Below are positions 2,752 through 27,249 of a stretch of 64,000 nt of DNA, piece by piece; the first letter of the stretch is position 1; every line of letters begins with the position of its first letter. The DNA is from Mesostigma viride (taxonomy: Eukaryota > Streptophyta > Mesostigmatophyceae > Mesostigmatales > Mesostigmataceae). The notes under the pieces were generated by a model. It did no database searches. It was not told where the DNA came from and was given only the letters and a program-made list of their open reading frames with translations. The stretch covers positions 952,429-1,016,428 of the forward strand of contig RPFO01000256.1 in NCBI GenBank assembly GCA_009746045.1, written 5' to 3'. The translations under genes and the position numbers were made by a program.

Positions 2752-5700
2752 TTAAGTCGGTGCCGGCCCCTCCGGGGCTTCATCCTTGATCACCAGCGTA
2801 GTAAGCCACTTGTCGAGCTCCTTGCTCATCCTGATGTCGGCACACATTCCGTCGCTGCGCACGCGTGCTTCTAGCCGGAGAGCCGGAGCGACGCAGAGAT
2901 AGCAATTCACAAGCTCGGGCTGGCGTGACGGTGGCCAATCCTCAACGTTGAGCGTGAAATGCAGGGGGTCATGCTTATCCCGCTTCCAAATCCGAACGGG
3001 AAGAATGCCGTTCCCGGCGAGGAACAGCTCCTTCTCCCGTCCGTTCCGGCCCTCGACCCACCTCTCGAAGTTCTCGTCTAACACGATCGGCCCGGCTTCG
3101 CTTACAACCTCAGCCAACCAGAACGGGTGGATGGGATCGTGATCCGTGTCCTTGTCCGATGGAACTGCCACATAGTCGTGGAGTCTCATCTGCCGGCCCA
3201 TCGCCTCCCGCTTGTCCTTCAGCTGCTCCCCCCGCGTCACCATGCGAACCGGAGGGTTGGGCTGGCTCGGTGGCAGCAAACGGACAGTTTTCATCGAGCT
3301 TCCTGCATCATTGAACTCGATGATAAACGACCACTCGCTTAGACATCCCTCAAACCGCCCAGCCAAACAGGGCGGACAGTAGCAGGAATAGCGCCTAATC
3401 ATCAAAAGGCCAGGGTCGGACTTGTCCAGTCGCCACCAATGCGCCTTCTTGATGCCAGGCACCTCCTCAACCTCCGCGCGTCGGCCGGACTCGACGTCCT
3501 GTCATCAAATAGTTAGGACAAAAAGAATACCGTTCAAATTAGCAAAATTGACCAAAAACCAATAAAACAGGGTATAGCTGCAGAGAGACCCCTTAAAAAA
3601 AAATTAACGACAAGACATCAAGTGATCAAAATTCGACACAGGGTATAGCTGCAGAGAGACCCCATTCGAATCATAATAACAACGTACGACAAGATATCAA
3701 GTGATCAAAATTCGACACAGGGTATAGCTGCAGAGAGACCCCATTCGAATCATAATAACAACGTACGACAAGATATCAAGTGATCGAAATTCGACACAGG
3801 GTATAGCTGCAGAGAGACCCCTTCATACCGAAAGAACAAGCGAAATTTCATACCTAAAAGAAAAGCAACCCATGGACAGTATATAGGGTCTCTCTGCAGA
3901 GATACCTTTATTGGGTTTGAATTTTTATAGAACAGCGGCAGTTGACGTCTTAAAACCTGAAATAACACAAAATTCCGTACCGGGGGTAAAAGGAAGAAGT
4001 GGCGAGTGACGTTCTCGGCCCGCGCGCGGGCCGACTCCCTGCTCGATGTCTTGCCGCCCTGCCAGTTCTGGTTCAAGTAGGCGACTAGCTGGTGGGTCTC
4101 AAGTATGTGCTGGTTTTCGGGAATCCTCTGCATTTCCCTCAAGACGCACTTGCACTTCGCTCCTTGACCATCCACCTCCCCCTTCCCATGCTGCTCCCCC
4201 ATGTAGTGGAACTCAAAGGCCTGCAGGTCGGGATCCCCCATGAGCAGACCGTTAATCTGGTTAATCACGTACCTGGACTTAAACTGCACCGCGCAGTTGT
4301 CCGAGCACATGTACAGGTTTCGCACCTCTACCCCTACTTCTACCCGCAGGGTTTCCAGAATCTTGCGAAGAGCGTATACGAGTGCGCGCTCGCCCCGCTT
4401 GATACTGGAATCCCCCAGGAAAAAGAAGACGCGCTTTTCCAGCTCGCCGTTGAGCCGATAACGCACGATCATGGGCATCAGGATGTGGCTGCGCTTGTGG
4501 AAGTACTGCGACTGCAGTTGGACGTAGCTGCTGTTCTCGTAGTTCTCGGCCCAGTCGCCGTGCACGAGCACGTCCCCCTCTCTCAGATTCTTCTCCCGAT
4601 CCTTGATTGTATCCGCCTGCGACCAGGCCGTAAAGCAGTGCACGGTGAACTTGTCCCACATCTTAAGAATCTCGTCCCGCAGCTCAGCTGGGGTGGACCT
4701 CATTTGGACTTGCTCGGGCCGCTTCACCTTCTTCGCCGCCCTGCCATCGGTCTCGCCCTGTTTCGCAAAGGTCCGCAGACAGTTTCGATTTGCAATAAAA
4801 TCGCATTTCGATAAGATAACTGCAACTCACAAAGGGTCTCGCTGCAGCTATAGGTCACAAAAAAAAAAGTCAACAACATATTAACGGAGAAATAAAATCG
4901 AAACCAACTCACATTCACCCGTCGGGTCACAGTCTGCTCCACCATCTCGAACTTGAACCAATTCAGAATCTCCGTGGAATTCTTGTCCCGATCACACTGC
5001 ACCCAGTTATTATGGATGCCGCATGATTCCTCAGGACAGAACCCCTCCACACACGCCATCTTCAGTATGCGGTGAACCCTCTCCGTCCTCGGCACCCCAT
5101 CTTCGTCCTCCACCAGCCTCTCAGAAATGTCGAGGTCTTCCAGGTCCCGTCCCCGCCATTCATCTTCCCCCTCCCCCTCTTCCATCCCCCCGCCCATTCC
5201 GCCCCCTTCACGCAGCCCGTTATCCCTGCCGTCAGTCTCGGCGGACACCGGGCAGTGAAAGTGCTTGATCCAGTCCGTCGAGTGAATGGCTTTCCACATT
5301 CCGCAAGTACCGTCCGGCTCTCTGTACTTGGAGCATCCCGCACACTCCGCGCCACACTTGCAGTTCTTGCCGTGGTTCGCATTGGAGTGCTTGGTCCACG
5401 CCCCCATGGCCGACTGCATGGTGACGTGCTTCTCACACGCGCACAGGTTCCTCTCCTTCCACTTGCCCTTGATGCAATCGGGCGCGTATTTGCAGAAGGT
5501 CGTGTAGCCCACGTGAATGCCCACGTCCTTATCATACTGGTTACTCCTTTTGTTCCAGTACGCATGCTTTTCGAGAAAGTGATTGTACATGTCCTCCTTG
5601 GAGGTCATGTAATAGCGCGCTCCCTCAACGGCGACGAGCACCCCGTGATTGCCACGACCCTCCCTGCTGTAAGTGCGCTTGACATCCTTCATCTGGGAGG

Positions 5701-6478
5701 AGGCGCGCGACTCATCATCGTGCATCCACGCGTCCACTATCGCGTCAATCACGAATTGCGGCAAAGGGCGCCCCTTGCGAGCCTGCGCGTGTCTGAGGTA
5801 GTCCAACTTCTGCTGCCTTCGTATCGCGCGAATTCCGCGAATCTTCTTGGCGTCCATCCCCGTCAGGTTCTCCAACTCCGCGGCCGAAAACTCCTTCTCC
5901 AAGTCGTCACCACAGTAAAGCGTGGACATCAGCACCATCCTGACGTCTCTGTCTGCGTCGCTTTTGGTCAGACCATCAAAAAAGCCGTTAATCCGAGCCA
6001 CCCAGAACCTGTTCAGTTCTGCCATCCGCTCCTGATTGTAAAGCTTTTTCGCCTCCTCATGATACTTCCCGTGACCTAGTTCAGCGGCCCTAGAGTTAAA
6101 GCCAGCAATCATCTGGTCGAAAGCCGGCCCCCGCCCCTCGGGTTTTGTCATCGCCTGAGCCGCTTCAAACGCCTGGTCAGCGAAATATTCCCCAATAACC
6201 CTCTTTGATTTCGAGTATTCTCCCGGCCGCTTGACTTCCTTGGCTTCAGGCTGCGCTGGATTCTGGTTCTCATCTCCGAAAACCCTTTTTGCGCCAGTTG
6301 ACTGCTTCGTCCCGGTGTTCAACTTAATTGCACTGAATCCTGGACGACCGGACGCAAGGGCGAAAACTCCCACCCGTTCGCGTGCTGCATGCCATGACGA
6401 CCGGCACAACGAAATCCATGCAAATCGAGTATCGTTGGGAAAAGCGACAATTACAGACAAAGTTCGAAAGTGTATCAT
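2752..6478 (-). CDS. Putative DDE (RNase H-fold) transposase, three exons
   Basis: Predicted exons are 6478-4913, 4757-3981 and 3498-2752, with GT-AG introns (donors GTGAGT and GTACGG) that all fall between codons; joined length is about 1029 residues. Exon 1 encodes a basic N-terminus and a Cys/His-rich region (about residues 330-390, with CACEKH and CKCGAECAGC). Exon 2 carries a candidate catalytic triad: GDWAENY (Asp about 590), CSDNCAVQFKS (Asp about 675) and HGKGEVDGQG (Glu about 716). Exon 3 has a CYCPPC cysteine cluster followed by a mixed C-terminal domain. From memory, similar DxxENY...SD...HGKG arrangements occur in uncharacterised transposase-like proteins of animals and fungi; no search was possible. 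The N-terminal start is uncertain, and an upstream exon may begin at an ATG at 6837. Its place inside matching termini supports a role in moving this element. Confidence 0.6.
3570..3907. repeat. Intronic tandem repeat of about 79 bp, each unit with a CTGCAG palindrome
   Basis: The intron between transposase exons 2 and 3 (3980-3499) contains near-identical units that share ATCAAGTGATC and ATTCGACACAGGG. Each ends in a degenerate palindrome of the form GGGTATAGCTG / CAGAGAGACCC at 3570, 3641, 3720 and 3799. A fifth palindrome in the opposite sense lies at 3886-3907. Confidence 0.8.
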
Positions 6479-6493
6479 TTTTTACCACGATTG

Positions 6494-7260
6494 GGGTCTA
6501 GCTGCAGCTAGACCCTTAGAGGGGCTTTTTCCGTTAGACGAAAAGATTACCTGATGTGGTGAACTTAGCATACCCCGACCAAGATTGGGGTCTCGCTGCA
6601 GCTAGACCCTTCATTGCGGCGTGCGATTGTTAAATCACAGACTTCTGATTCATTAATTTTATAGCAACCATAAAGAGGGTCTAGCTGCAGCGAGACCCTT
6701 GAATTTAAGCTATTGCTTGTGGTTATAAATGGTCTAGCTGCAGAGAGACCCCAATAAGGACGAAAAGATTTCAGGTTTTCCTCACCTTCGCGGCTCATTC
6801 TCTTATTAGTTCTCCCAGAACACTCAGATACCTGCATGGCGAGAATAACAAAAATAACACAGTAGCATTGATAAAATTGTTTATCAGAAAATATATATAC
6901 TAATTACAGTATATTTTGCAAAAGATTTTATAATATATTGTGAATAGCATGGTTAAATTCCACATACTTTAATAATATGGTATGTTAAAGTATATAGAAT
7001 CATTATTTAGTAAATCATTTACAAGAAAAAGTGGTATAGACTATTATTATTATATAGTTCGGCAATCTATGATAGTAAGACGTACCGGATGTCAGGTTTA
7101 TCAGCGGCCTCCAGGGCTATAGCGTCTCGCTGCAGCGTGAGTTTGGTGCTATGACTGATTTCAGTAGATGTGCAGAAAAAAATTTATTTCCATGACCACA
7201 CCAGGAATCGAACCCAGAACCTCATTGTACATTTCGCATGGTAACGATGTCAGCCAAACA
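6494..7260. other. Palindrome cluster and AT-rich DNA upstream of the transposase gene
   Basis: Four palindromes at 6494-6752 lie directly upstream of the transposase ORF, where its promoter or first intron would be. A minus-strand ATG at 6837 followed by a GTGAGG donor-like site near 6785 could mark a short 5' exon. From 6840 to 7130 the DNA is AT-rich with no coding signal. At about 7200-7215 the minus strand reads GGGTTCGATTCC, a B-box match without a convincing tRNA fold. Confidence 0.45.
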
Positions 7261-7567
7261 TCCGAATGTTCCCAGGTAAATGGGCTGGAGGTCGTCTCTT
7301 TTTATACCTGCGGCCACAAGCACGGGTGACGGCATATTGGATGTCGTCCAATCCGCTAGCTTGGTTCCAAAAGATGGGATCGAGCTTTTGCACCAGCGCC
7401 GCGCTTCCAGTTTTCAGTTCCGTGGGGAGGAACGAGGATGCCACGTTTCCAATTTTTTCAATACCGTTCAGCCCTGTGACGCCGCGTCCGTTTTGCGAAT
7501 TGCGACCGTCCCATCGCCCATCGAAAAAGAAGCGCAGCCGCAGAGAGACCCCATAGCTGATACGAGC
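7261..7567. other. Unassigned sequence; overlapping short ORFs only
   Basis: Several frames are open for about 100 codons on both strands, but none shows a recognisable domain, a supported start or splice sites linking it to neighbours. A half-palindrome (CCGCAGAGAGACCCC) lies at about 7535-7550. I see no supportable gene here. Confidence 0.3.
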
Positions 7568-8294
7568 TGCCATATCGTTTCGACGTTTGCATGCTACCTG
7601 CTGGATTATAAAATCCTACGTTGATACCTGCCTGGTGCCGGAAGTTTACAAGGAAATCGGTCTGCTTTCGCCGCACAACGAAAAAAAGGTGAGCTTTTGC
7701 CGCATCCTGGATGGTAGGCTGACTAAAATTGTTCTATCAAAAACGGCAACTAAACAGCGCATGCACGCCGACGACACAGTTAGCCAGCTGGGCGAAGACA
7801 TGTCCTTGCTGCCATCGCAAGAAACTCTATGTTGCAGCAAGAGTGATAAAAATGTCTGGCTTCCTTCTTTTCGTTGCTAGCTAAACCCTGCAGACATCTC
7901 GGTAGAGTCAGCTAAGCCGATCCTAATCCACATCTGGCATCCATCCCTTTAGTCTAGTTGCCATGGAGCGTTTCTTGGTCTCGCACATGTCGATCATGGT
8001 GGTGCTAGGCTTTCACTTGGGTCACCCTTTCCATGTTTGCTATGCCTTTGGTCTGGTTAGGTTATAGGTGTAGATGTGCACATACTGCATTTGCTGCGTT
8101 TCTAATCGGTGCTCCTGTTTGATGCTTTTTTTCCCCTTCATATCGTTTCGACGTTTGCATGCTACCTGCCGGATTATAACATCGGACGTTGCTACCTGCC
8201 TGCATAACGATAGTTTGCAAGAAATCTTCATTTTGCCGAAACACAAAAAAAGGTGATCTTTTGCCGCAACGTGGATGGTAGGCTGACTAAAATT
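7568..8294 (+). repeat. Duplicated segment of about 165 bp (7568-7735 and 8137-8294)
   Basis: Both copies begin CATATCGTTTCGACGTTTGC and end GATGGTAGGCTGACTAAAAT, with point changes and small indels between. They are separated by about 400 bp of sequence with no recognised gene. The second copy abuts the 30-bp minisatellite, so the duplicated segment may have been the seed where the array began. A 97-codon frame through the first copy is not conserved in the second. Confidence 0.7.
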
Positions 8295-9903
8295 GTGCTG
8301 CTACGTATCAATACATGTGGGGGGGTGCTGCTACGTATCAATACATGTGGGGGGGTGCTGCTACGTATCAATACATGTGGGGGGGTGCTGCTACGTATCA
8401 ATACATGTGGGGGGGTGCTGCTACGTATCAATACATGTGGGGGGGTGCTGCTACGTATCAATACATGTGGGGGGGTGCTGCTACGTATCAATACATGTGG
8501 GGGGGTGCTGCTACGTATCAATACATGTGGGGGGGTGCTGCTACGTATCAATACATGTGGGGGGGTGCTGCTACGTATCAATACATGTGGGGGGGTGCTG
8601 CTACGTATCAATACATGTGGGGGGGTGCTGCTACGTATCAATACATGTGGGGGGTGCTGCTACGTATCAATACATGTGGGGGGGTGCTGCTACGTATCAA
8701 TACATGTGGGGGGGTGCTGCTACGTATCAATACATGTGGGGGGGTGCTGCTACGTATCAATACATGTGGGGGGGTGCTGCTACGTATCAATACATGTGGG
8801 GGGGTGCTGCTACGTATCAATACATGTGGGGGGGTGCTGCTACGTATCAATACATGTGGGGGGGTGCTGCTACGTATCAATACATGTGGGGGGGTGCTGC
8901 TACGTATCAATACATGTGGGGGGGTGCTGCTACGTATCAATACATGTGGGGGGGTGCTGCTACGTATCAATACATGTGGGGGGGTGCTGCTACGTATCAA
9001 TACATGTGGGGGGGTGCTGCTACGTATCAATACATGTGGGGGGGTGCTGCTACGTATCAATACATGTGGGGGGGTGCTGCTACGTATCAATACATGTGGG
9101 GGGGTGCTGCTACGTATCAATACATGTGGGGGGGTGCTGCTACGTATCAATACATGTGGGGGGGTGCTGCTACGTATCAATACATGTGGGGGGGTGCTGC
9201 TACGTATCAATACATGTGGGGGGGTGCTGCTACGTATCAATACATGTGGGGGGGTGCTGCTACGTATCAATACATGTGGGGGGGTGCTGCTACGTATCAA
9301 TACATGTGGGGGGGTGCTGCTACGTATCAATACATGTGGGGGGGTGCTGCTACGTATCAATACATGTGGGGGGGTGCTGCTACGTATCAATACATGTGGG
9401 GGGGTGCTGCTACGTATCAATACATGTGGGGGGGTGCTGCTACGTATCAATACATGTGGGGGGTGCTGCTACGTACGTATCAATACATGTGGGGGGGTGC
9501 TGCTACGTATCAATACATGTGGGGGGGTGCTGCTACGTATCAATACATGTGGGGGGGTGCTGCTACGTATCAATACATGTGGGGGGGTGCTGCTACGTAT
9601 CAATACATGTGGGGGGGTGCTGCTACGTATCAATACATGTGGGGGGGTGCTGCTACGTATCAATACATGTGGGGGGGTGCTGCTACGTATCAATACATGT
9701 GGGGGGTGCTGCTACGTATCAATACATGTGGGGGGGTGCTGCTACGTATCAATACATGTGGGGGGGTGCTGCTACGTATCAATACATGTGGGGGGGGATG
9801 CTACGTATCAATACATGTGGGGGGGTGATGCTACGTATCAATACATGTGGGGGGTGATGCTACGTACGTATCAATACATGTGGGGGGGTGATGCTACGTA
9901 TCA
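8295..9903 (+). repeat. 30-bp minisatellite array 1, about 53 copies
   Basis: The unit is GTGCTGCTACG followed by TATCAATACATG and a run of G. Copies are almost identical; a few lose one G, two gain a TACG repeat (near 9472 and 9865), and the last ones change GCTGCT to GATGCT. Because 30 is divisible by three, long ORFs appear in all three plus-strand frames and on the minus strand. They are by-products of the repeat and are not annotated as genes. Confidence 0.97.
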
Positions 9904-11046
9904 TTTATTTATTCATGCCATCACCCCCCCACATTTAATTATTAATGCCAGCACCCCCAACATTCATTTATTCATGCCATCACACCCCCACATTCTTTTA
10001 TTCATGGCAGCACCCCCCACATTTATTTATTCATGCCATCACACCCCCACATTTAATGATTAATGCCAGCACCCCCCAACATTCATTTATTCATGCCATC
10101 ACACCCCCACATTCTTTTATTCATGGCAGCACCCCCCACATTTATTTATTCATGCCATCACCCCCCCACATTCTTTTATTCATGGCAGCACCCCCCCACA
10201 TTTATTTATTCATGCCATCACCCCCCCACATTTAATTATTAATGCCAGCACCCCCCAACATTCATTTATTCATGCCATCACACCCCCACATTCTTTTATT
10301 CATGGCAGCACCCCCCCACATTCTTTTATTCATGGCAGCACCCCCCCACATTTATTTATTCATGCCATCACCCCCCCACATTTAATTATTAATGCCAGCA
10401 CCCCCCAACATTCATTTATTCATGCCATCACACCCCCACATTCTTTTATTCATGGCAGCACCCCCCCACATTCTTTTATTCATGGCAGCACCCCCCACAT
10501 TTATTTATTCATGCCATCACCCCCCCACATTCTTTTATTCATGGCAGCACCCCCCACATTTATTTATTCATGCCATCACCCCCCACATTCTTTTATTCAT
10601 GGCAGCACCCCCCCACATTTATTTATTCATGCCATCACCCCCCACATTTAATTATTAATGCCAGCACCCCCCAACATTCATTTATTCATGCCATCACACC
10701 CCCACATTCTTTTATTCATGGCAGCACCCCCCCACATTCTTTTATTCATGGCAGCACCCCCCACATTTATTTATTCATGCCATCACCCCCCCACATTTAA
10801 TTATTAATGCCAGCACCCCCCAACATTCATTTATTCATGCCATCACACCCCCACATTCTTTTATTCATGGCAGCACCCCCCCACATTCTTTTATTCATGG
10901 CAGCACCCCCCCACATTTATTTATTCATGCCATCACCCCCCACATTTAATTATTAATGCCAGCACCCCCCCACATGCATTTATACATAGCATCCCCCCCC
11001 ACATGTATTTATACGTAGCTTCCCCCCCCACATGTATTTATACGTG
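9904..11046 (-). repeat. 30-bp minisatellite array 2, diverged and inverted relative to array 1
   Basis: Units such as CCCCCCACATTTATTTATTC / ATGCCATCAC and CCCCCCACATTCTTTTATTC / ATGGCAGCAC are diverged versions of the reverse complement of the array 1 unit (CCCCCCACATGTATTGATAC / GTAGCAGCAC). The last units, near 10970-11046, are closest to the array 1 form (ACATGTATTTATACGTAG). Four subtypes recur in a loose higher-order order. The two arrays meet head to head near 9903. Confidence 0.9.
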
Positions 11047-11594
11047 GTCGTAAGGGTCTCGCTGCGGGTAGACCCTCGGAATTTTGTTTTTGTATTGACG
11101 TTAGGGTCTCGCTGCAGCGAGACCCCAAGGAATGTCAATTTTTCATGTTTTCATGATGGGGGGTCTTTCTTTTCTCACCCTTAAAATGATTTGTTTTTGT
11201 ATCGGTGTTAGGGTCTCGCTGCAGCGAGACCCCTACGAATGTCGACTTTTAATGTTTGCAAGATGGGAGAGGGCTTTCTTCGCTCACCCTAAAAATGATT
11301 TGTTTTTGTTTGACGTTAGGGTCTCGCTGCAGCGAGACCCCTACGAATGTCGACTTTTTTATGTTTGCATGATGGGAGGTTGCTTGTTTTCGCTCACCCT
11401 AAAAATGATTTGTTTTTGCTTGAAGTGAGGGTCTCGCTGCAGCGAGACGCCAAAGTTTTGCATTAAACTAAATGTCCCTTTTAGAATCCACGAAAGGGTC
11501 TAGCTGCAGCGAGACCCTCCCCATCGTTTTTCTGCCGGTAATTCAGATTCTGAATGACATTTGTGAAACTTGCTTTTTTGATATTGTTCTGCAG
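11047..11594 (+). repeat. Tandem 110-bp units with perfect CTGCAG palindromes; leader of the long gene
   Basis: Three tandem units (about 11095-11450) share AATGTCGACTTTT, a CTCACCCTAAAAATGATTTG word and one 22-bp palindrome each. Additional palindromes sit at 11054, 11429 and 11496. The block ends at a pyrimidine-rich acceptor-like GATATTGTTCTGCAG directly before an ATG at 11595, so it may be the 5' UTR and first intron of the downstream gene. Confidence 0.7.
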
Positions 11595-12787
11595 ATGTCG
11601 TCCTCCTATTCCGATGCTGTCAAGGCCACTCCCGTTTCACCCAAGATGACGTCGAACACCTCGCCGGACGGAACGGCAACGGAGGCGTTTCCTCCGTTGC
11701 AGTTTGGTCCCGTAAATGCTATTGCGAGGTCCCCCCCACCGAGTCCCCCTCGCCCTCCAAGTCCAACTTGCCCCCCAGCGAGTTGGACAGAATTATACCC
11801 CCCAACCCTCTCGCTGCTGCGTCTCGCGCTCCGTCCCGCTCTCCGCCCCGTAAGTCTCCATCGCCGCCCCCCAAGTCGGCCGGAGCTGCTGCGTCCCTCT
11901 CGCCGAACCGCAAGTCCCCCAAGTCCCCCGCAACTGCGACCCGTTCGCCGAACCGCAAGTCCCCCTCTCCGCCCAAAGTTCCCCCCGCTACCGCGTCCCG
12001 CTCTCCTTCTCGCAAGTCCCCCTCGCCGTCAACCAAGAACCCCGCAACTGCGTCCCGCTCGCCGTCCCGCTCTCCTTCCCCCAAGTCCCGCTCGCCGCCA
12101 CCCAAGTCCCCTGCTTCTGCGTCCCGTCCGCCGTCCCCCAAGCATTCCAGTTCTAAGCGTAAGCCTGCGGCCGAGTGGGTAGAGGAAGACGACCGCACCA
12201 AAGAGCTCAGGAAGCTGAGGAAGTCTATCGGTGAGCTTGTTGAGGAGGACGAGCGCGATCAGACTAACGGGAGGCCTGAAGACCCGGAATCGCCGGTTCG
12301 GGAGTCGCGTCGGAAGCGGTTGTCCGATTTGTTAGCAATGGCCGCAAGCTTTGCTGACGAGTACGCGGCTCTCGACAAGAAGGACATGGAGAAGGAGAAG
12401 GCGGAGAGGGAGGCCATCGAGAAGGCGGAGAGGGAGAGGGTGGAGAGGGAGGAGAAGGAGATGGTGGAGAAGGCGGAGAGGGAGGAGGAGGAGAGGGAGT
12501 ACAAGGAGAAAAAGGCTGCCCAGGAGAAGGAGCACAGGATCCTGGTGGCGAAGCAGAAGGAGGAGGCGAAGAAGAAGACGGAGGCGGCAGCGAAGTCAAT
12601 TCTTGCGGAGGAGGCCGCTCTTTTTTTGCAGATGCGACAGGAGAGGATGAAGGCGGAAGAGGCTGCGAGGAAGGAGGAGGAGGAGGCTGCGAGGAAGGAG
12701 GAGGAGGCTGCGAAGGCGGTTGAGGGGGAGAAGGACGAGAACGTGAAGAAGGGGTGGGCTCCCGAAGGATGTTCAGTCGATTATCAG
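11595..12787 (+). CDS. Long gene of unknown function, exon 1: Ser/Pro/Lys-rich and coiled-coil region
   Basis: The exon starts at an ATG right after a TGCAG acceptor and ends at the donor GTATGT at 12788. It encodes MSSSYSDAVKATPVSP, then about 120 residues of Ser-Pro-Arg-Lys repeats (many SPSRKSPSP-like motifs), then a strongly charged Glu/Lys/Arg helix (about 12370-12740) that should form a long coiled coil. The frame slips by one base in the C7 run at about 11731; an eighth C would make the exon continuous. The composition suggests a nuclear or nucleic-acid-associated protein, but such low-complexity sequence gives no family. It splices in phase 0 to 12980. Confidence 0.55.
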
Positions 12788-13063
12788 GTATGTTTATTGA
12801 TGTGAGACGTACATTTCTCAGATGGCTTTTGAACGGCGTGTGTGTATCGTAGAAAGGGTGGGATTTTATGTCATACATTGATCCTAAGGGTATAGCTGCG
12901 GAGAGACGTTGACTTAGGAGTTAAGGTTGTTGACGACGACGACGATGTGTGGCCTTTTTTTTACTCTTGTTGTCTGCAGCCCTCCACGGTGGCCATTCTG
13001 AAACAGTACCTGGCTCAGACTGAGTCTGAGGCTGGGGTGAGTCGTAAAGCCGAAAAGGGCTTG

Positions 13064-13680
13064 AGTTAACGTAAAGGATTTACGTTAGATGGATAGAGAT
13101 TGTTACGCTCTTTCCAACGGCACCTTGAACGCCTCATTTGGTTAAGGAACGTAAAAGTTATGACGTTTCCTAGGCTGTGCCGACAGTACCCGGCGCGCCA
13201 CTGTGGGCGCGTACGGACACAGGATGTACAAGTGTCACTTTGATAGTCCGCAGGACGTTGACAGGACTTGTACAGGACTTGATGGTCAATTGATAGGTAG
13301 GCGCACTGTAGCGCGCCAGGACCTATGAGACAATTGATGCTGACTAGTGTACGGATAGGTCCACAGGACTAGCCGTATGGACAATTGATAGATCTGCGCG
13401 CCAAAGGCGTGCCAGAGTCTGTGTAATCAATTGATTGACAGTTCAGCTGTGACAGTGCAGCTGAATACTTGGACGCGTCCCTAGTAAGCTATATGAGTGA
13501 CTTGGTCACACCGGGACGCTAGTTCTTGCGTGCACGTTCTCTTGGCACTGCGACCCTGTCGTCTGTGCTGCGTGCAGTCTTGGAAGTGACGTGACTTACG
13601 TCTGTGTTTCCTGATTATTAATAAAGGCAACTTCCTGCAAGAACCATGGCGGAATTCGTGGCATTCTTACCCTCACAACT
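13064..13680 (+). repeat. Copia-2 5' LTR (3' LTR at 20267-20883)
   Basis: The 617-bp repeat holds an AATAAA polyadenylation-like signal (about 13619) and, near its end, an ATG in good context (ACCATGGCG, at 13646). From this ATG the frame reads MAEFVAFLPSQL out of the LTR. One extra A in the AAAAA run at about 13700 would join it to the following MPNSEEFRIP frame, so Gag translation may begin within the LTR. No tRNA-type primer site beginning TGG was found directly after 13680. Confidence 0.9.
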
Positions 13681-14409
13681 CGTATTACACGCTCTGTCAA
13701 AAAGATGCCAAATTCGGAAGAATTTCGGATTCCGGACGATGAGGAAATAGCCGCTCCGCCGGCTGGTTCTTCGTCAAGACCAACTGTGCCGTCGTGGCAA
13801 CAATTGCTCGACGAAGTTACAGTTTCGCTCGACGAGCTTCATCGTCAGCAGCGTGCAGCTCACGCATTGCTCGGGGATAACCCCGAGGACCCCGATTTGC
13901 CAGCACTGGTGCCGGCTCGCGCATTTGGACCAGATTCGAAACATTTTATCGACATTTACGGTCCAGGTGCGGGGAGGTTTGCGGTCGGTGACCGAAGTCA
14001 CGACTGCCATTGAGGAGTTGGACAACGTCCTCTCTTCACTCACCGGTTACCAGAGAAACCTGCAAAACTGGGCATCGCTTCGCACGGGGGGCGCGCCGGC
14101 GGTGTCAACAAATTTGTTTCAGGATCTCGCGCTGTATCGCTGCTCACTCGCGGCGTACGCAGTCGTGAGCGCCAGGTTTTAATTAACCTGGTGGCATTTC
14201 TCGCCTCTGTGCGAGAGTGGATTCCCGCGGGGTGGGAATTATTGACGATCTTTACACATCCTCTGCGCCTCGTCGCGCGTCGGCGCGTCGCAACTTACGC
14301 GGCGGGGAGCACGCCGGTTTTAATTCATACCGGTGCAGGTCCGGAGCTGGATATGGAGGATCGTGAGTTCGTATACACGTACTGCGACTTCAGGGGCCTT
14401 GACTACTAG
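13646..14409 (+). pseudogene. Copia-2 N-terminal gag-like leader ORF, fragmented
   Basis: Successive frames at 13646-13704, 13705-13970, 13970-14182 and 14191-14409 appear to be pieces of one reading frame broken by small indels. They contain acidic and amphipathic helical sequence (WQQLLDEVTVSLDELHRQQR and TTAIEELDNVLSSLTGYQR) as is common in Gag N-termini. No zinc knuckle is present here; that lies in the next ORF. A stop before AATTAACCTGGTGG at about 14180 separates the last piece. The Gag assignment rests on position and composition only. Confidence 0.45.
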
Positions 14410-15692: not shown

Positions 15693-15833
15693 CTGTCTGA
15701 GGCAACCCCTACACACCTTAATTCACCCAAGGGGGAGGCCAGGTGCTCCAATGCAGATTTTATATCTGGGCAACAAGAGGGTGATCTCCAGGTTCAGTGT
15801 GGCCCCAGGTCACCTGGAGAGGTACAGGTTCCT

Positions 15834-18800
15834 ATGAAGACGTCCTTGACAGCTGATGCAGCTGTAAGTATGTCTGACCCTATGCATCCTCGTGCTGGGC
15901 ACGAGGGTGGACCTCTCATTTTGAGAGAAACCAATGTACAACCACAGAGGGGTGTGAAGGCCTCTGGTGGTATGCATGTGGTCCCTGCTGGCGGTCCAGG
16001 TGTTGGGCATGAGCAGGGTGACTCAGGCTCTGAGTCAGAACAGGATGGAAGTCAGCATGGTGATGCTGGACAACCTGACAGCACAGTCCTGACTGTGCCA
16101 GGGACTGCTTCCTCTGTGTACCAGGAGTTGGGTGCCCGAATCCACAACATGTTTGGGCATGCCACTTCTCTGTCAAACAACTTTGCCTTCCGTATGGGCA
16201 GGGCACCCCTTCTTAAGGCGTGTCAGCAAGCTGCCTCACGGTGTAAGTGCCAGTTGTCCTCCAACAAGCCCAGGAAATCACATGCCAAAGCTCTACCTCA
16301 GAGCATTGGTGATCTGCAGTGTGATATCCAACACATCAGGGGCATGCAACTGTTGGTGTGCGTGGACAGGTACACGAAATACAAGGTGCTGGAGCATTTA
16401 CCTTCTATGAAGAACAGGTACTTGCTGGCTGCCCTGCAGAATGTAAGAGCCAAGTTTCCTACCACAAGGATCCAGGTGGACATGCAGTTTCAGCATCTCA
16501 AGGGTGATCCTACCCTTCCTGAGTTGCTGGTTACACCTAGGGAGGCTCATGGGCAGCAGGGTGCTATCGAGAGGGCAATCCAGGAGGTCAAGAAATTGAT
16601 CATCTCTGAAGACTGGGTACCCTTGTCTGCACCTGCACTTGTCAGGAGTGCATGGCTGAGGAACGTGGAGCAGCAGCTGAACAGCAGGGTTAACTTCTAC
16701 TATGATGGAGTTGCTGTCAGCCCAATGGGTCTATATCATGGCCTGTGCCCACCACATGTGCTGGAGGGCTGGAAACATGCTGCACATGTCACCTTTGCCA
16801 AGCTGAGGGAGAAGGACCGGGGTTGGAAGATGCTGGAGCCACAAGTGGGTCAGAAGGTCCTAGCTTGGAAGGAACCTAGCCTTTATGGCAAACGTGGTAG
16901 CTGGAGTCCTGGGGTGGTTACCCAGGTTGATGAAGCTAGCCACGCATGCTTGGTCAGCATGGAGGACGAACCAAAGCATGTACACCGGCTGAGTTGGTCA
17001 TATGTCAAGCCTAACCTGATGAATGAGGGCAGTCAGGCACAAGGCTCACAGGATCTGCAGGATTTTCAGGTCCCAGGTGACATCACTGACGCAACGACCA
17101 CATCTGTTGCAGGGGAATCTGTCAGCCCTGGCCAGGTTGCAGAGGTACTTGTTGAACAGGCTGCAAGGTCAACAGCTGGGGAGTCAACTGTCAAGCCCAA
17201 GGCACTAACCAAGCCCAGGGGGACAAGTTTGGCTGGATTGATTGGGGCTCTACAAAGGGCCAAGAAGCAGCCCAAGGTAGCCAAGCTCAGGTGGCATGGC
17301 AATCTGGGGCTGGACACTGCCTTAGAGGTAGACACTAATTCTCAGGTCTCCATTATTGGGACCAGGGCTGCAGCAGGGTACAGCATGTCTGAACCCAGCT
17401 ATCAGTTTGTGTCTGACTTCAGTGGCGGGGTACACGTGAAGGTACTGGGTGAGGTATTCATTCCTATCCTTGGACAGGACACTGCTTTTTGTGTCTTGGA
17501 GGGCTATCAAGGACCTGCTCTTCTGGGGCAGAATTTCCTATGCCAGGATGGGGTAGTGATCACGTCCTCTCTCCTGACTAAGGAAGGGGCTGGTCAGGTC
17601 CCACTGATTAATTTCAGGACCACTCACCTATCACGTGCAGTAACCAGGACGGTTAAGCGTGTGCAAGTGTGCCAGGGGCAGGAGCCCTTGGTTGATGACC
17701 TCATACTGCCAGCTGCTAGTCATCCAAGCAGTTTGGGCATTGGTCCTCACTCACTTGCTGGACACAGCCCTATCAACTACCAAGGCCTGGTGAAGCTCAT
17801 GTCCTCTCCCATTATGTGTCCCCAGGTCACACTGGGTCTGATTAAATCTGGGGAGGACTGGATCTCCAAGAAATGCGTGGAACCTGTCAATGACCTGCCT
17901 CCTGCACGACGTCTACTCAAGCTCAAGTTTGTCATCAAGATGAAGGAGGTGGACGGGGTCAAGGTACCACATGTCAGGCCAGTGCTGAATGAGTTCAAGG
18001 GTACTGGTGAGTGCACTGCTGAGGAGTTGTATACCCCTGGCATGCTGCATGATACTTGGAGGCTGCTGCTGTGTGTCTTTCTAGGCCTTCTCAACAAGGG
18101 CTTGGACTATGGCTCAGTGGTGATAGACTTCAAGAGGGCATTTCTGGAGGGTGATGCAGATGTGGCACAGGAAAAGTGGGAGGGCAAGACGCCTTTCTAT
18201 GTTAGGGTGCCTGCTGTATGGAAAAGGGACATCCACACGGAGTTCCTTAAAATCCTCAAGGGCCTGGAGGGCCTGAGGTCAAGTCCAATAATCTGGAGGG
18301 AGACTCTCAACCGTTTCCTGAAGGAGCATTGCAACTTGAAGGTCTCTCCTGTAGACCCCTGTCTGTTTCTGGGGCAATGGGAAGGCCTGCCAGTGTATGC
18401 TTCGCTGCACGGGGATGACCTACATCTGATAGCTCCCACGTCGTGGCTTAAGGAGCTGATCTCCATCATTAAGTCCAAGTTTCCTCTGGGTAGGGAGCAA
18501 TGGCAGGTGGAGAATGAGCCTCTGCTGTTTGTGGGCATGGAGGCCACACTGGTGAAGAAGGGGGGGAGTGGCGTATGCTGCTGGTGGGGGGCAATGACTA
18601 TCAAGAGACCCTCATTAGCAAGCTTCCTCCAACCATCACACAGGCACTGTGTCCCATGGTGAGGGGCATGGTTGCTTGGGTGGCAGGCATTTCCAGGCCA
18701 GACCTTATGGTCATAGCCAGGTTGCCTGATGACATGCTGGTGGAGCTAGGGTCTGCCAAGGTGGCTGATCAGGTCAGGGCTTCATCTGGCATTCTGTTGT

Positions 18801-19318
18801 CTGCAGTGGATTTATCACAACCCATTTGCATGGAGCTGTATGTGGATAGCTCAATGGACAGCAGGCAGGTCTCCAAGGTCAGGGGCAGGGCTGCAGGGCT
18901 CTTTGTGCTCAGACAGGAAGGCCTGGGGAGTTTGGTGAGCTGGTTTAGTCGCCTGCACAAACGGGTGGCTGTCAGCAGTGATGTGGCAGAATGCAGGGCT
19001 ATTTGTGAAGGCATTCACACAAGCCTTTATCTGAAGGAGTTGCTTCATCAGATGACTTCTAACACTCCTTGGCCACTTCAGGTTACCACTCTTCTAAAAA
19101 CAGACTCCATGGGGATGGTGCAGTTTGTGCACAGGCAGATGGCCAGAAGTAGGGACTTGGATTATCTCCTTCTTAAGGAGTTGTCCTCCTTGGCCAATAT
19201 TGAGCATATCCCTGGGGTTGACAATCCTGCTGATGCTTTGACCAAGCTAGTGCAGAAGGCAGCAGTGCAATACAAGGTTCTTCAGTCTCTGATGGACCCA
19301 TCTCAGCAAGCTGTCTAA
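15834..19318 (+). CDS. Copia-2 Pol with order integrase - protease - RT - RNase H
   Basis: Integrase comes first: an HHCC finger (HNMFGH...CKCQ, residues about 100-140), then Asp about 162 (QCDIQHI), Asp about 213 (QVDMQFQ) and Glu about 243 (GQQGAIERAIQ). A retropepsin-like domain follows at about 490-570, with VDTNSQVSIIG in the place of the usual DTGA motif and PALLGQNFL as the conserved C-terminal strand. RT then shows VVIDFKRAFLEGD (about 763) and HGDD (about 858) where most Copia RTs have YVDD. RNase H shows YVDSSMDSRQ and TDSMGMV and ends with HIPGVDNPADALTK. The frame breaks in the G7 run at about 18560; an eighth G joins 15834-18570 to the 19318 stop. Confidence 0.88.
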
Positions 19319-20266
19319 GCTGGTGCATGGTTATAGGGCATTGGAGAGCAGATTGTGTGGTAGTGTCAGCATTGTGACTGGCATAATACCTGTATTTTAG
19401 TCTGTACTAAGGCTCATGGACCATGGTACACTCACTCTGATTTTAATCAGGATACAGCCAGGTTTTGGCTGGGGTTCATGCTGTTGACTACACAAGGTTG
19501 ACAGGTCCATTACAGACCATGTATTCTATTTTAAAAGAAATGTATATTTGTACATACTCTCACAATGGTCTGGGAACCTTTATTCTGGGGTTTATAGGGC
19601 GGGGTTCGATTCCCTGGTATTATGTTTCTACAAGCTGGCCTGTTCAGGTGTTTGCCTGTTCAGACTTCCCTAGTTCCCCAGGGCAGGATTTAATTGTTGC
19701 CTATGTGTTTCATTTTGTCATTTGTTTGCTGTGGCAGTTTACCATCTGGCAAGTAGACGGGCGCCGTAAGACGGGCGCCAATAGACCCCTGTTGAGAGAA
19801 TGACAGGCAAACTATTGTAATACGCCTTACTTTGTCAAGTGGTATTTTAATTGTCATGGATTTATTGTACTTATATTGAATATGTACTGGGTTTTATGGG
19901 ATTAGTATCTGGGATTAATGTAACTCACCGCCAGAAGGTCATTGTACTGGAGGCTCTACCGAGGTGATGGGATTAATTCCTGGAGAAGACCTCATAGAAT
20001 TAACCTGTATGTATTTAATTTTGTGTGCTTCTAATATCTGGTGGTACTCTGTAATGCCACTTCCATAGGTTTTCTCCATTTCTCATGAAATGGTTTTCCC
20101 TGTGGCAGATCTGTTTCTTTTCCAGTTCCTTAAAAGAAAGGGCTGGGGGAATGGCAATGGCCATTAAAGACATCTGTTCAAGCTTCAAGCTGGAGTGAAG
20201 GACATTTCAAGCTACTTCAAGGGTCCCTGGCAGGGGATGTGATCCCTAAAGAAAAGAAGGGATTGG
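19319..20266 (+). other. Copia-2 3' non-coding region
   Basis: About 950 bp lie between the pol stop and the 3' LTR. I see no ORF with recognisable content. A B-box-like GGGTTCGATTCC at about 19602 lacks a tRNA fold. The region ends in a purine-rich tract, which is the likely plus-strand priming site. Confidence 0.75.
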
Positions 20267-21961
20267 AGTTAACGTAAAGGATTTACGTTAGATGGATAGA
20301 GATTGTTACGCTCTTTCCAACGGCACCTTGAACGCCTCATTTGGTTAAGGAACGTAAAAGTTATGACGTTTCCTAGGCTGTGCCGACAGTACCCGGCGCG
20401 CCACTGTGGGCGCGTACGGACACAGGATGTACAAGTGTCACTTTGATAGTCCGCAGGACGTTGACAGGACTTGTACAGGACTTGATGGTCAATTGATAGG
20501 TAGGCGCACTGTAGCGCGCCAGGACCTATGAGACAATTGATGCTGACTAGTGTACGGATAGGTCCACAGGACTAGCCGTATGGACAATTGATAGATCTGC
20601 GCGCCAAAGGCGTGCCAGAGTCTGTGTAATCAATTGATTGACAGTTCAGCTGTGACAGTGCAGCTGAATACTTGGACGCGTCCCTAGTAAGCTATATGAG
20701 TGACTTGGTCACACCGGGACGCTAGTTCTTGCGTGCACGTTCTCTTGGCACTGCGACCCTGTCGTCTGTGCTGCGTGCAGTCTTGGAAGTGACGTGACTT
20801 ACGTCTGTGTTTCCTGATTATTAATAAAGGCAACTTCCTGCAAGAACCATGGCGGAATTCGTGGCATTCTTACCCTCACAACTGCTTGAGAGGCTTGATC
20901 CGCTTTCTTTCGGCCGAGATAGCGTTTGCAGAGAAGTCCGGTGTCGTCGTGGACCGTCCGGAGTCGGCACACATAATTTGGAAGAACGACCGCCTGGGCC
21001 ATCTTGCATTGTTCGAAGCCACACAGCGAGCCATTCATGGGAAGAGGGTCGTTGGTGACGACATTTATGAGGTTTTGAAGATCGCGCAGTCGTGCATCCT
21101 TAATCTGAAGGAGGATGTCGGACGTTACTTTCCCCGTCGTGCTTTAATATGGTCGACGCTCTTTGATGAGGTTGAAAAGTTCGAGGTCCACATTGGCTTC
21201 ACATGCATCGAGGCTTCCTATATGGAAACCTTGAAAACCACTGCGTTGCATCAGCTCTTTAAACTCATGACTGGAGATATGAGAGCGGATTCGAGGGCTT
21301 CACTGTCGGAAGATGAAGTGTTTGATATTGTCAGGCAAGGATTTGTTGACACGTCCAACAGTGACTTTATCGTAATTGTGCCGGGAAGAATGAATGACGT
21401 AGGAGGATTGGAGGAGCGCGCACATGAAGTGATCGCGCATTTGGACATGGCAAGAGACCACTTACTGCAATCTTTTGTTAAGTGGCGGACTGACTTTCTT
21501 GTTAGCCCGGACGCCAGCCTTTCGCGGGAAGCGGTCGCTTTCTTTTTGGATTGGGCTGGACAGGTGATCCAAAGTTTCCGGCACCGGGAGGACTTCCATG
21601 TTATTCAGACATATAAGCCATACCGGGAAGTCGTCCAGGAATGGTTGGATCAAATCTCGTTGGTTGATTGTCTCCAGAGTATCCGAACCAAGACAGACAC
21701 GGAGTGGTCTGATTTAGAGGCGGGAGGCCATTGGCAGTCCCTCGAGTTGTTCTTCGAGGCGGAATTGAGGCGGCAACTGGAAAAGGAGAGAGCCCATCAA
21801 GTGCCGATATGGCCTTTGGGGAAGATTTTGAGGAGGTGGAAGTTCTACGTTTCGGTACGTTAACTTGCCGATATCGTTTATCGATTTGGGTTGTTTCCAT
21901 TCCCTGAATAGGGCTCTATATGCTGACCAACCTTCATGGTTTGTCCTGTCATATCATGCAG

Positions 21962-22476
21962 GGGGGCTCCATGCCAGGGGACGTATCGGAGGATGTACCG
22001 AATTTGTCAGACTTGGTTGATAAGGTGGGTGCTTGTCCGTCGAGTTTCCACGAGCATCTTACATGGGGTCTAGCTGCAGGTAGACCCTCACCCTTTTATT
22101 GAGACTGACATGTTCGGCTAATTTCAACGGTGCCCCCAACCAATCTGTTGTCTTTTTTCAGGGGGCGGCTGCGGCGATGGCTGTTGACAGTGCTGGTATT
22201 TGGTCTGGACTCGAGATGGAAATGGTAAGCATTAAACGATATCCGGATGTCTGCATTTCGCCTGAAGTTTTAGTGAGCGCATTATGCGAAATATACAAAT
22301 GTCGACTAATTTTGATTTCCAATGAGCTGTCGTATTCGGTGTTGACAGGCGGGGGTTTGGCCTCAGCAGGCGCTGCCGGAGAGGAAGAAAACGCTGGAGG
22401 AGATGAGGATGGGGGGGATGAAAACGCTGGAGGAGATGAGGATGGGGGAGACGCTGAGGGAGAAGTGGCTGTGCAG
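21962..22476 (+). CDS. Long gene, small exons 3-5 (21962-22024, 22162-22224, about 22349-22476)
   Basis: Three small exons are predicted from clear acceptors (ATCATGCAG, TTTTTTCAG, TTGACAG) and donors (GTGGGT, GTAAGC, GTACGT). The first two are 21 codons each and phase 0. The third would be 43 codons if the G5 run at 22350-22354 had one more G; it then encodes a Gly/Glu/Asp-rich acidic tract (EEENAGGDEDGGD repeated) ending exactly between codons. A CTGCAG palindrome lies in the intron at 22066. These exons add an acidic linker of unknown role between exons 2 and 6. Confidence 0.5.
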
Positions 22477-22602
22477 GTACGTTCATCCGCCGCGAGTTCG
22501 TGTGATTTTTTTCGTGCTGAGGGGTATCTCCGCAGAGAGACGATGGTGCAACAATCGAACTGAGGTGAAGTCCCTTCTTGTTCGTTTTTTTTTGTCATGC
22601 AG

Positions 22603-23124
22603 GCGGGGGCTGTCGCTGGGGGTACTGCGGGGGGGAAGGCGGCGAAGCCTCCATTGACTGAGCATGAAAGGGAAAAGCTGGATTCCCGCAAGAAGGTTGC
22701 GAAGGATCATATTATTGCTGTTGGCCTGATCATGCTTAAGTCTCCGCCCGATGGCGTCGATTCGGAGGGACCTGCGGGGTCCGAGTTTCGCAAGTACCTG
22801 ACACGACTTGAGGCGGAAGTCGATGCCGATTTCGATACGGAGGTGTTGGGTGTCGCTACCCTTAATAGTGAATTGGCATATGAATTTGTAAATCTGGTGA
22901 GGTCGAAAGCCACCAAGAATTTCAAGTGGCAGCCTAAGGAGTACTCAGAGGCAAAGGTTGAGAAGATCGAGAAATTCATGAAGGTTGATTTTCGTCGTCG
23001 GGCCGCTGAGGGAAAAAGGGCGCTGAATGCGGTGGCAAAGGCCAACAGTAAGAAGAACGCGGAGGCGAAGAAGGCGGAGAAGGAGAAGGCTAAGGAGGCC
23101 AAGAAGCAGCAGAAAACTGGACAG
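22603..23124 (+). CDS. Long gene, exon 6: lysine-rich helical segment
   Basis: The exon is flanked by a textbook acceptor (a T run then GTCATGCAG) and a GTACGA donor. It has 174 codons in phase 0. It starts AGAVAGGTAGGKAAKPPLTE, has a central region with DTEVLGVATLNSELAYEFVN and ends in a Lys/Glu/Ala-rich helix (KKNAEAKKAEKEKAKEAKK). No family was recognised. The intron before it holds a decayed palindrome at 22522 and the intron after it one at 23147. Confidence 0.55.
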
Positions 23125-23313
23125 GTACGATTGTTGTGAAAATTTAGACCTCTCGCTGCGGGTAGACGCTGACTGGCTGCGGGACTTGGTGTTGAGTGTC
23201 AGTAAGGTATTATTCCAACAGAACTTTGTTCGTCCCTGAACAGGATGTCGTGGTCGGCCTAAATATTACTGACTTGAGCAAATCCTGCGGTCCTTTTCGA
23301 TTTTTTACTTCAG

Positions 23314-24481
23314 GATGACGGGGGGGACGAAGACGCCACGGTGGAGAAGAAGTTACCTGGTCATGACGCCGTGTTCGCGCTGGTGAAGGATATGCTCAAG
23401 TACTGCTCGAGTAGGCGGATGGCGGACGTCGATGACCTGCCAAACTGGCCCGAGTTCTCCCCCTTTCTTGAGCTGCTCCGGTCACTCAACAAGCTTTTTA
23501 AGGAGGGGGTGCTCACGAGCAGTGGGAACCCGGACACCGACCCTATCATTGAAAGCTGGAAGCCTTCGAAAAAGGTCGACTCGAACAAGGAGGTCAGGGA
23601 CCAGAACATCCGGAAGGCCAATTCTCTCAGGGAAACGCGTTGGATTCGGCCGGCCGATTTTCAGCAGACCGGATGTTTCAGTATGCGGATCCAGACGGTC
23701 AACGCGCTTATTTTGCCAGAGGCTTTGAGGCAGCGGCGTTTAAACCTTGAAACCATTAAGGAGAACGGCCGCATTCTCCTCAATGCGCGGGACAACGCCT
23801 TGCACTTCAAGGTTGTTGTCCCGGTCTGGCAGTTCCCTTTCCAGGCGCTTGCCGAATCTCAACCTGACCTGTTCGACAAGCAAATCTTGTGCATGCCGGA
23901 TTTCGTCAAGTGGCTGAAGCATTCACCACGGCGCCAAGATTGACGCGGAGGATGTGGGGTCCAGGTACTTCCGGCCCCTTTCGGATACTGAAGTCGACGT
24001 GTGGCTTAACACGGAGTCCACCACCTCTTTCCTCGCGAGAGGACTTGAGTGGCGTACCTACGCCAGGGTGGACGAGGTGGAAGCAGTTTTGCCTCAGGAG
24101 ATCGAGGGCAGTCGGGATGTTTTCAACCTGCTGTGCAATACTGCGATGAAGTCCTACGATCCGAAATTTTTTGAGGAACGGGTACCGGTACCGTATCTGG
24201 TTCTCCGGTACGCGGTGGTGGATGGGAACCACTACTTTAAGGGGTTAAAGTCGTTTCTCAGGGGGCCGGATGGCGGGTGGGGAGAGGTTCGGGCAATGAT
24301 GTGCGAGGGTGGGGCGGAGTCCAATTTCGCAAAGACTCCTAAGGAGGCGGAGCACGCCTTCCAGGACCTGTTGCGGAAATTCCGTGGTGGTTACATGGGT
24401 ACGAACGTCATTCTTCTCAAGGGTGGCGACCTGCTCCCGTCGTGGAGTGAGCTGCGAAATCTACCTAAGGCAAAAGAAGAT
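23314..24481 (+). CDS. Long gene, exon 7: unknown globular domain
   Basis: After a TTTTTTACTTCAG acceptor the exon reads DDGGDEDATVEKKLPGHDAV and stays open to about 23925, where one extra base (in CACCACGG) shifts the frame. It then continues as AKIDAEDVGSRYF to a GTAAGC donor at 24482. This is the least repetitive and most protein-like part of the gene: about 389 codons with balanced composition (for example FQQTGCFSMRIQTVNALILP and YLVLRYAVVDGNHYFKGL). No catalytic motif is obvious. It is the best query for remote-homology searching. The following intron (24482-24736) contains three CTGCAG palindromes. Confidence 0.6.
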
Positions 24482-24736
24482 GTAAGCTATCTATTTTGGC
24501 AGGGTCTAGCTGCGGGTAGACCCTCGGAATTTTCGTGGTTGTTTTTTGTGTGCGCTTCAAGTTTTTTGCGAGGGTCTCGCTGCAGCTAGACCCTCTCCTT
24601 TTTTTTGTTGGAATTTTCGTTGCGTATTGTCGGCCGTTTCTTTTTCGAATTTTGTTAGGGTCTATCCGCAGCTATACCCCTCGCCTTTTATGACTGAGTT
24701 TTGTCGTTGCTCGCTCGATGTTAATTGATGTCGCAG

Positions 24737-27249
24737 GCGGTGCTGACCGGCAAGCTGGAGAAGCTGTTCGACATCGCCAAGGGGGCGAATTCGGAGGACT
24801 TAGCCGTGGCGGATCGTACGCTGGGCCAGGCGTTGCTTGACGTGTGGAACTACAACAAGCTATATCTATACGGCAAAGTCACGCGTGGGAAGGGCCACTA
24901 TATTGCGGATGGCCACTACACCAATCTGCTCACGTACATCCTCCCGGCTATGCGGCAAGCGGGGGGAAGGGAAGGGAATGTGGAGCCGGCAGCGGTGGAT
25001 GTACACGAGGAGGAAGCAGAAGGAAAGAAAAAGCCGGCCCACAGCATTGCTTCAGTGCATTCCGCTTACAGTCGCACGCTGGCCAACACGTTTCTCCGTC
25101 TGACACAGGAGCAGACTGATGATCCTGCCTCAACGAAACCCGCGCCTGAGGAGGTGATGATGCAAAGGTGCAAATTCGCCAATGCAGAGGGGGAGAAGAA
25201 AGGCCAGAAGGTCTCTTGGACTTCTTTCAGGAACTTGGCCAGCCTTCCTATGATGGACGCCGTGATCGATTGCATCATGAGCTGCCAGGTTGGACCGGAA
25301 AAGCTCACCAAGTTGGTGGAGATCGCCAAGGATGTGCTGGAGTGCCTGCGGCTGACCATTTGCGCCAGATTCAAGGAGGATGTGACGCTGGAAGCGCGAT
25401 GCAAGGACGCAAATGGCAAGGAGTTTGTGGCGTCTCATATTTTCGAACTCGTCTTCAATCTCCATCCTCTCGCTCGGCCGGTCGGCAGGAAGGAGATTGT
25501 GGCCAGATACCGGGAATTTTGGGATGTGGCCGTCATCATAACGAGGAACATCGCCTACCTTCTTAAAGCCAAAAAACACGCCGCACATCTGAGGATTCCG
25601 AGAAAGGATATCAGTAATGGCAAGATCGACTTTCAGGAGATTCTGCTAAAAGAGAGCGAGGACAAGACGGTGGGTTTGGCACTTTTTGCTCCGGAAGCGT
25701 TCAGGAAGTACGCTCCAAAACTTGGATTACTCGAAGGGGGGTGAAGGAGGCGGCGATGAAGGGGCCGGTGAAGGGGCTGGAGAAGGGATCGAAGGGGAAG
25801 GGGAAGGGGAAGGAGACGGAGGCGAAGAAGGAGGAGGAGGAGTGGGACGTGAAGTATGAGTGGCAGAGTGTGGACTGGGGCCGTCGCCGGGTCTGGTTTT
25901 GCTGTCAGTTACTAGACGGTGATGATGATGACAAGTCGCTCGTCAAGCAGGTGGCAGGCGAGGTTGCCTCAGCTTCAGCCCGCCCCTTTCCCTTGGGCTA
26001 TAGGTCCCTTCCGTGCCTGAGCCTGCTGAACTTGGCGAACATTTGGGGTGATAAGTGGAGTAACTTTCAGTCCAGGTGGTGGGCGTTCGGTCCTTGCCCG
26101 AAAGCTTCGGACATTCCCCAACCGGGCGGGATGTACGATCATGTGCTGAAGGCTTGCGCCCACGACTTTTTCTCCAGGTTCGAACCGATGGTGATCGTGT
26201 TTGGTACCGAGACGGAGATTAAGGGGTTTCAAGAGATAGTGGAAAGGATCGGGAAAGGGAGTGAATTGTGGGAGCGGCTTGAACAGGGGGAAGGTGATGG
26301 GGGGCCTAGGCTCGGAAGGGCGAAGAAGCGAAAAGCTTCCCACGAAGCTGGGGGATTGTCCGCCGTGGTGGAGAGGGATGACCAACAGTTGTTGGAGGGA
26401 GGGGATGGAGGGGATGGAGGTCCGGCAGGAGGGTCTAACCGCGGAGAGACCCCCGTCGAGGTCAGAACGCAGCAGGCCGAACAGATACGGGGCCTGAAGG
26501 TGATTCGGATCCGCCTGCGGCGAAGAAGCCCGCTTCTCAAGTGACTCGACGGGCAGTCGTGTCACTTGTTGAGGATGATGGAGGTGGGCCTTCCAAGCCT
26601 GCCGCGTCGCAGCCCGTTTTTCAGGTTCCGAAGAAGCAGCTTCGGGTTCCCGCCGACTCTGCCCACCCCGGCGCCTCTGCCCAGTTCTCAGGTACCGAAG
26701 AAGCAGCTTCGGGTTCCCCCGCCGACTCTGGCCATTTCTCAGGTACCGAAGAAGCAGCTTCGTAAGCCAGTTGTGGCAGTGGCTGATTCGGACGACGATG
26801 CTGAGGAGGAGGAGGAGGAGGAGGACGACGATGCTGAGGAGGAGGAGGGGGAGGAGGAGGAGGAGGAGGAGGAGCAGCAGCCGTTGCTACCAAGAAATCC
26901 GCCAAGGGTGGGAAGGCTGCGGAGCACGTTGCTTCCAAGAAATCGGCCAAGGTGGGGAAGCCTCCCAAGCCTGCCCTGCCTCAGAAACGGCGTCGAAAAG
27001 CAGTTGTGCTTTCAGATTCGGACGATGAGGAGGAGAAGGAGGAGGAGGATGGCGGCGGAGAGGAGGAGGACGGGGGAAAGGAGCGCGTTGCTTCCAAGAA
27101 GTTACCCAAGACCGCGAAGACTGCCAAGGTTGCCGAGCCCGCCAAACCCGCCCCGGCGCCTGCCCCCCACCCCCAGACGGGGTCTACCTGCGAGCAGAGG
27201 TCGAAGGAAAAGGCCAAAAAGGGTAAGAAAAAATCTGCGAGTGAATTCT
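24737..27249 (+). CDS. Long gene, exon 8: unknown domain followed by acidic/Lys-rich tail
   Basis: From the acceptor GATGTCGCAG at 24736 the frame encodes AVLTGKLEKLFDIAKGANSE and about 335 ordered-looking residues. It then shifts in the G6 run at 25735-25740 and again near ATACGGGG at about 26490. Adding one G at each place gives a single frame. The second half includes YEWQSVDWGRRRVWF, ANIWGDKWSNFQSRWWAFG and a bipartite-like basic stretch (RAKKRKASHE). Three VPKKQLR repeats follow, then Glu/Asp runs and TKKSAKGGKAAEHVASKKSA, as in many chromatin-associated proteins. One palindrome variant (26431) lies within this coding stretch. Function unknown; a nuclear role is inferred from composition only. 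Confidence 0.5.

Follow-up and report, generated by a model that had tools for sequence, protein, structure and literature searches.

To our knowledge, arrays of short motifs that are read by transposon proteins are described in few cases. The TnpA sites of maize Spm/En, like other subterminal repeats, are repeated short motifs, some of them in inverted pairs, that are bound by a protein of the element. These sites lie near the ends, whereas those of the large Mesostigma element described here are internal and largely intronic. The VANC21 motif of VANDAL21 in Arabidopsis is, in the cited parts of Hosaka et al. 2017 (PMC5735166) and Sasaki et al. 2023 (PMC10398659), highly enriched in one family and rare in other transposons, lies mostly in non-coding DNA (introns, intergenic and terminal parts), and is multiplied by tandem repeats in numbers that vary between copies. 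By analogy with these descriptions, the layout of the Mesostigma palindromes resembles that of the VANC21 motifs more than that of end-binding transposase sites. The palindrome is likewise specific to its family and concentrated in the non-coding DNA of the element (50 exact sites checked), and it is also multiplied in tandem with a varying number of units, most of the other sites not being tandem. On the other hand, the VANC21 motif has 9 bases in a single orientation, whereas the Mesostigma site is a 22-bp palindrome made of inverted pairs. The element is of another kind and belongs to an alga. For VANDAL21, the cited parts of these papers do not mention elements that lack genes and carry a fixed pair of sites, as found in Mesostigma.

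The window, i.e. the whole 64-kb stretch of DNA that was analysed, contains a 27-kb DNA transposon inserted into a Copia-type element (Table 1). A second, uninterrupted copy of this Copia (42368-47065) shows the empty insertion site of the transposon. A 4-bp target duplication is present in the six full copies with both ends (window, A, B, C, D and S3 + S1), where the stretches S3 and S1 are counted as one split copy that probably represents a single element. Sola DNA transposons, reported in moss, have 4-bp target duplications and terminal inverted repeats and a usual size of 2-9 kb, with some above 15 kb mentioned (review PMC10741241, as cited in part). Compared by description, the Mesostigma element shares the 4-bp duplication and the terminal inverted repeats (6/6 full copies and 9/10 of its MITEs), and differs in being 27 kb long, or ~19 kb without the nested Copia, which is above the usual size.

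Table 1. Features of the 27-kb transposon, in positions of the window
Feature	Position	Strand	Basis and remarks
27-kb DNA transposon, ends GGGTGGTCCCACGCGGAATGGGGT, target duplication TGTA, inside Copia-type element	1068..28202		terminal inverted repeats
Palindrome, weak left half, just past stop of minus-strand gene	2715..2736		half-site scan
Transposase-like gene (putative function), 4 exons, ~1002 aa, introns 6385-6785, 4758-4912, 3499-3980	2752..6798	-	splice model
5 palindromes (3570, 3641, 3720, 3799, 3886), intron 3499-3980	3570..3907		scan, splice model; 4 or 5 units in other copies
Palindrome, weak right half, intron 4758-4912	4834..4855		scan, splice model
4 palindromes (6494, 6588, 6677, 6730), intron 6385-6785	6494..6751		scan, splice model, copy comparison
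Two weak sites (~7122, ~7531), intergenic	7122..7552		half-sites, by eye
6 palindromes (11054, 11104, 11211, 11319, 11429, 11496), upstream of plus-strand coding region	11054..11517		scan; 5 in copy D
Second gene region, introns 12788-12979, 21855-21961, 22025-22161, 22225-22348, 22477-22602, 23125-23313, 24482-24736, 27223-27345	11595..27908	+	splice sites and reading frames; introns from splice-site reading alone
Palindrome, weak right half, intron 12788-12979	12888..12909		scan, splice-site reading
Palindrome, intron 22025-22161	22066..22087		scan; identical in 9/9 sequences
Weak palindrome, intron 22477-22602	22522..22543		scan; identical in 9/9 sequences
Offset weak site, intron 23125-23313	23143..23164		by eye, absent from scan list
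3 palindromes (24502, 24572, 24658), intron 24482-24736	24502..24679		scan; identical in 9/9 sequences
Weak palindrome, sole exonic case, in coding sequence	26431..26452		scan

The splice model of the minus-strand gene is 100% identical to the separate gene model P0001 over the 76% that is covered, and the introns agree. The identity of its product to further protein models is 58% (P0002) and 40% (P0003). Invariant aspartates are found in A2. The fold model of the protein is poor (pLDDT 36), and a PDB search gave no match. Ten reading frames of the element have no match in Pfam at E 0.1; P0002 gives TniQ (E = 0.11) and DUF7869 (E = 0.12), both far below the cut-off. Neither relatives of the transposase nor exact copies of the palindrome were found in viral contigs. 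Two features interrupt the plus-strand gene region: the nested Copia and, near 23.92 kb, a frame change in an exon (~23920) that is possibly an assembly error or decay. The nested element, read by eye, is a Copia-type retrotransposon with long terminal repeats at ~13056-20883. Between the divergent genes lie two abutting blocks of ~30-bp tandem repeats (8295-9903 and 9902-11045), and the length of this stretch (8295-11045) seems to differ among copies.

The palindromes of the window are approximate copies of a 22-bp consensus, GGGTCT[C/A]GCTG-CAGC[G/T]AGACCC, and number 25-27 in the 27-kb transposon. A scan with a degenerate half-site model, allowing ≤4 departures, finds 25, all within the transposon. 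The list used for placement has 27, namely the 25 sites of the model minus 2035, plus three weak sites seen by eye (~7122, ~7531 and 23143). The initial annotation had counted about 26, which agrees with both lists, and had confined them to 3570-26452 of the giant element; they do lie inside it, and their true span, from 2035 to 26452, is slightly wider. Their absence from the nested Copia and from the rest of the window also held: the degenerate half-site scan finds none in the nested Copia and the left flank, and positions 28401-64000 (35.6 kb) are without a palindrome. No known RNA family reaches its gathering score in the window, and the two papers on the Mesostigma genome (PMC6947507 and PMC7027972) do not use the word stem 'palindrom' in their main text. 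Among 20 first-order Markov controls, 18 contain no palindrome, one contains 1 and one contains 2. These controls, together with the reversed control of the genome-wide search, rule out a chance origin.

Some of the palindromes are tandem copies and hence not independent sites: a ~79-bp unit carries those at 3641, 3720 and 3799, and a ~108-bp unit carries those across 11104-11440. Palindromes that are not part of a tandem array have flanks unrelated to one another. Although 62% of the usable element is exonic, 26 of the 27 placed palindromes are outside exons (17 intronic and 9 in other non-coding DNA), the one exonic site (26431) having 3 departures. The binomial probability of this avoidance is 2e-10, or 2e-8 when tandem units are collapsed to 22 sites. 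Introns are in turn favoured over other non-coding DNA (15/21 with tandem units collapsed, 36% expected, P = 0.001). Introns of genes on both strands and intergenic DNA thus carry the sites, as the initial annotation had noted, and within the element of the window the distribution between introns and exons is not random. The minus-strand introns 6385-6785, 4758-4912 and 3499-3980 hold 4, 1 and 5 palindromes, respectively. In the plus-strand gene, palindromes are found in 5 of the 8 introns (first, third, fifth, sixth by eye, and seventh) and 3 are without.

The search for the 22-mer in the 440-Mb assembly, with ≤2 mismatches, returns 3019 places and its reversed control returns 0. Confinement to the element group was checked site by site for 50 exact sites (contigs C1, C2 and C16), and all 50 are inside copies that align to the element; none lies outside, where copies would be the hallmark of a mobile palindrome. 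Intact copies hold 16 or 17 such exact sites, and stretch A holds 19, two of which are in a neighbouring MITE. With 466 terminal repeats genome-wide and 16-17 sites per intact copy, the total of 3019 is roughly explained by the element group. By this estimate, in which the totals agree roughly, nearly all sites of the genome are in this group of transposons.

In the window and ten fetched loci the palindromes keep the same places, and the copies compared have no clear differences of presence or absence. The number of tandem units differs by one in intron 3499-3980 and in the region 11046-11594, and in copies C, E and F some sites are altered by a single base or by small indels. The comparison of copies that had been proposed therefore gives conserved positions, with differences in tandem units and small changes. 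Averaged over pairs of copies, the difference is 0.0086 for palindromes and 0.0202 for the spacers that share their regions, a figure that includes the sites used for finding the copies; insertions led to the exclusion of copy B from intron 6385-6785 and of both B and S2 from 7480-7600. The ten loci were selected by exact palindromes, and the count of constraint was restricted to regions and sites not used in the selection. In this count 7 of 286 palindrome sites are polymorphic versus 89 of 1418 spacer sites (circular-shift P = 0.046). Introns that carry no site have diverged just as little (0.0083) as the palindromes, which weakens the test, and the intron site at 12888 is more variable than its own spacer (0.028 versus 0.017). 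The signal of sequence constraint on the palindromes within copies is thus weak (P about 0.05).

The same ends occur on other elements. Thirty places were sampled by exact terminal repeat (the first 30 listed, contigs C1-C58, several of them being ends of the same ten loci): 11 are MITEs, 16 mark an end of the 27-kb element, 2 mark the two ends of a 10.3-kb element and the remaining one is unclear. The MITEs (L027, L028, L029, L032, L034, L035, L036, L041, L044, L051 and L026) are 585-588 bp long (~586), contain no genes and share the ends of the 27-kb element; one has an insertion. The 4-bp target duplication is found in 9 of 10, the tenth being off by one base. Each of the 11 carries two palindromes and all 22 are exact, at 134 and ~360 in uninterrupted copies. 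No stretch of the MITE interior longer than 60 bp matches the 27-kb element, which also lacks a palindrome near +134, where the MITE has one; the MITE sites are consequently not simple remnants of an internal deletion. The alignment of 10 MITEs has 37 variable columns, none of them in the palindromes (P = 0.05); L026, the copy with the insertion, was omitted and its palindromes are exact. When the palindrome is left open in the MITE pattern, 50 places are found (reversed control 9). Of these, 22 are readable (10 MITEs already aligned and 12 new), with 18 exact palindromes and 4 with one change. The 10.3-kb element (C36:18339-28652, L049 and L050) shares its terminal repeats with the 27-kb element, to which its right end is partly related, and five more pairs are assigned to it by spacing alone. 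Over 1.5 kb at each of its ends, one weak site is seen on the left and none on the right. At L052, an unclear element that has one terminal repeat, no palindrome is present in the 1.5 kb examined.

The palindromes are probably double-stranded sites for a dimeric protein that acts in trans on the transposon group. The two halves vary independently, with 78.5% of cells paired versus 79.4% in shuffles (18 palindromes, 16 distinct), which agrees with the free mixing of half-sites described in the initial annotation. Its reading of a dimeric protein site gains from these independent halves and from the retention of the sites in gene-less MITEs. Independent halves, carriers with and without genes, and placement in non-coding DNA and tandem arrays all fit a trans-acting dimeric DNA-binding protein. 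One subunit of the dimer would bind each 11-bp half. The protein that binds the palindromes may be encoded by the element and, once bound, could open or activate the chromatin of the element, either by anti-silencing or by transcriptional activation. We propose that introns carry the sites because arrays fit there without disturbing the coding sequence. A more specific version, advanced tentatively and somewhat doubtful, is a sequence-specific anti-silencing system that evolved independently in this early-diverging streptophyte alga, in which the element-encoded dimer would read intron-borne palindromes and keep the group and its MITEs unsilenced.

The subterminal repeats of other transposons serve as sites of the transposition complex, and the transposase or an accessory subunit could likewise bind the palindromes, which would act as internal enhancers or as places of assembly. 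MITEs need only cis signals in order to move and keep two sites each, which favours such a role. However, the outer 2.5 kb on the left and 3.5 kb on the right of the 27-kb element hold only weak sites (2035, 2715 and 26431), which speaks against simple end-binding, and ~25 sites across introns exceed the needs of a transposition complex. This role is thus rather unlikely. RNA hairpins that aid the splicing or the stability of element transcripts would account for the preference for introns over other non-coding DNA. On the other hand, the pairing of the arms is not above shuffles, there is no surplus of compensatory changes, and palindromes also occur in non-intronic DNA and, as two exact copies, in MITEs that have no genes. 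Splicing hairpins, one of the roles first suggested, are therefore disfavoured and appear very improbable.

Mobile palindromes have a precedent in the PstI-type palindromes of fungal mitochondria. A small mobile or gene-converting palindrome may have spread through the non-coding DNA of the group and be now fixed and functionless. The unrelated flanks of different sites outside the tandem arrays are compatible with a past spread, and the MITE carries sites at places that are empty in the large element. The fixed positions in copies and the 50 of 50 exact sites inside the element disfavour a palindrome that is mobile at present, so that of the tiny mobile palindrome suggested earlier only a past spread could apply. 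As the copies compared have no clear difference of presence or absence, 0 of the 50 exact sites lie outside the group and the palindromes are exact in 11 of 11 sampled MITEs, we consider this explanation improbable.

The 27-kb elements and gene-less MITEs that share one palindromic site are a clean test system, and the MITEs reveal which cis signals are required. Should an anti-silencing protein be recruited by the sites, systems of this kind would have evolved more than once among green plants, and placing the sites in introns would be a general means of carrying them.

The window contains further features. A reading frame of 1292 aa (32756-36634) resembles, by eye, a DIRS-like element with reverse transcriptase and tyrosine recombinase. 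A minisatellite of ~50-bp units occupies 48045-49465, and positions 62001-64000 form an extreme pyrimidine strand with a GC content of 0.74 and an AT skew of -0.98.
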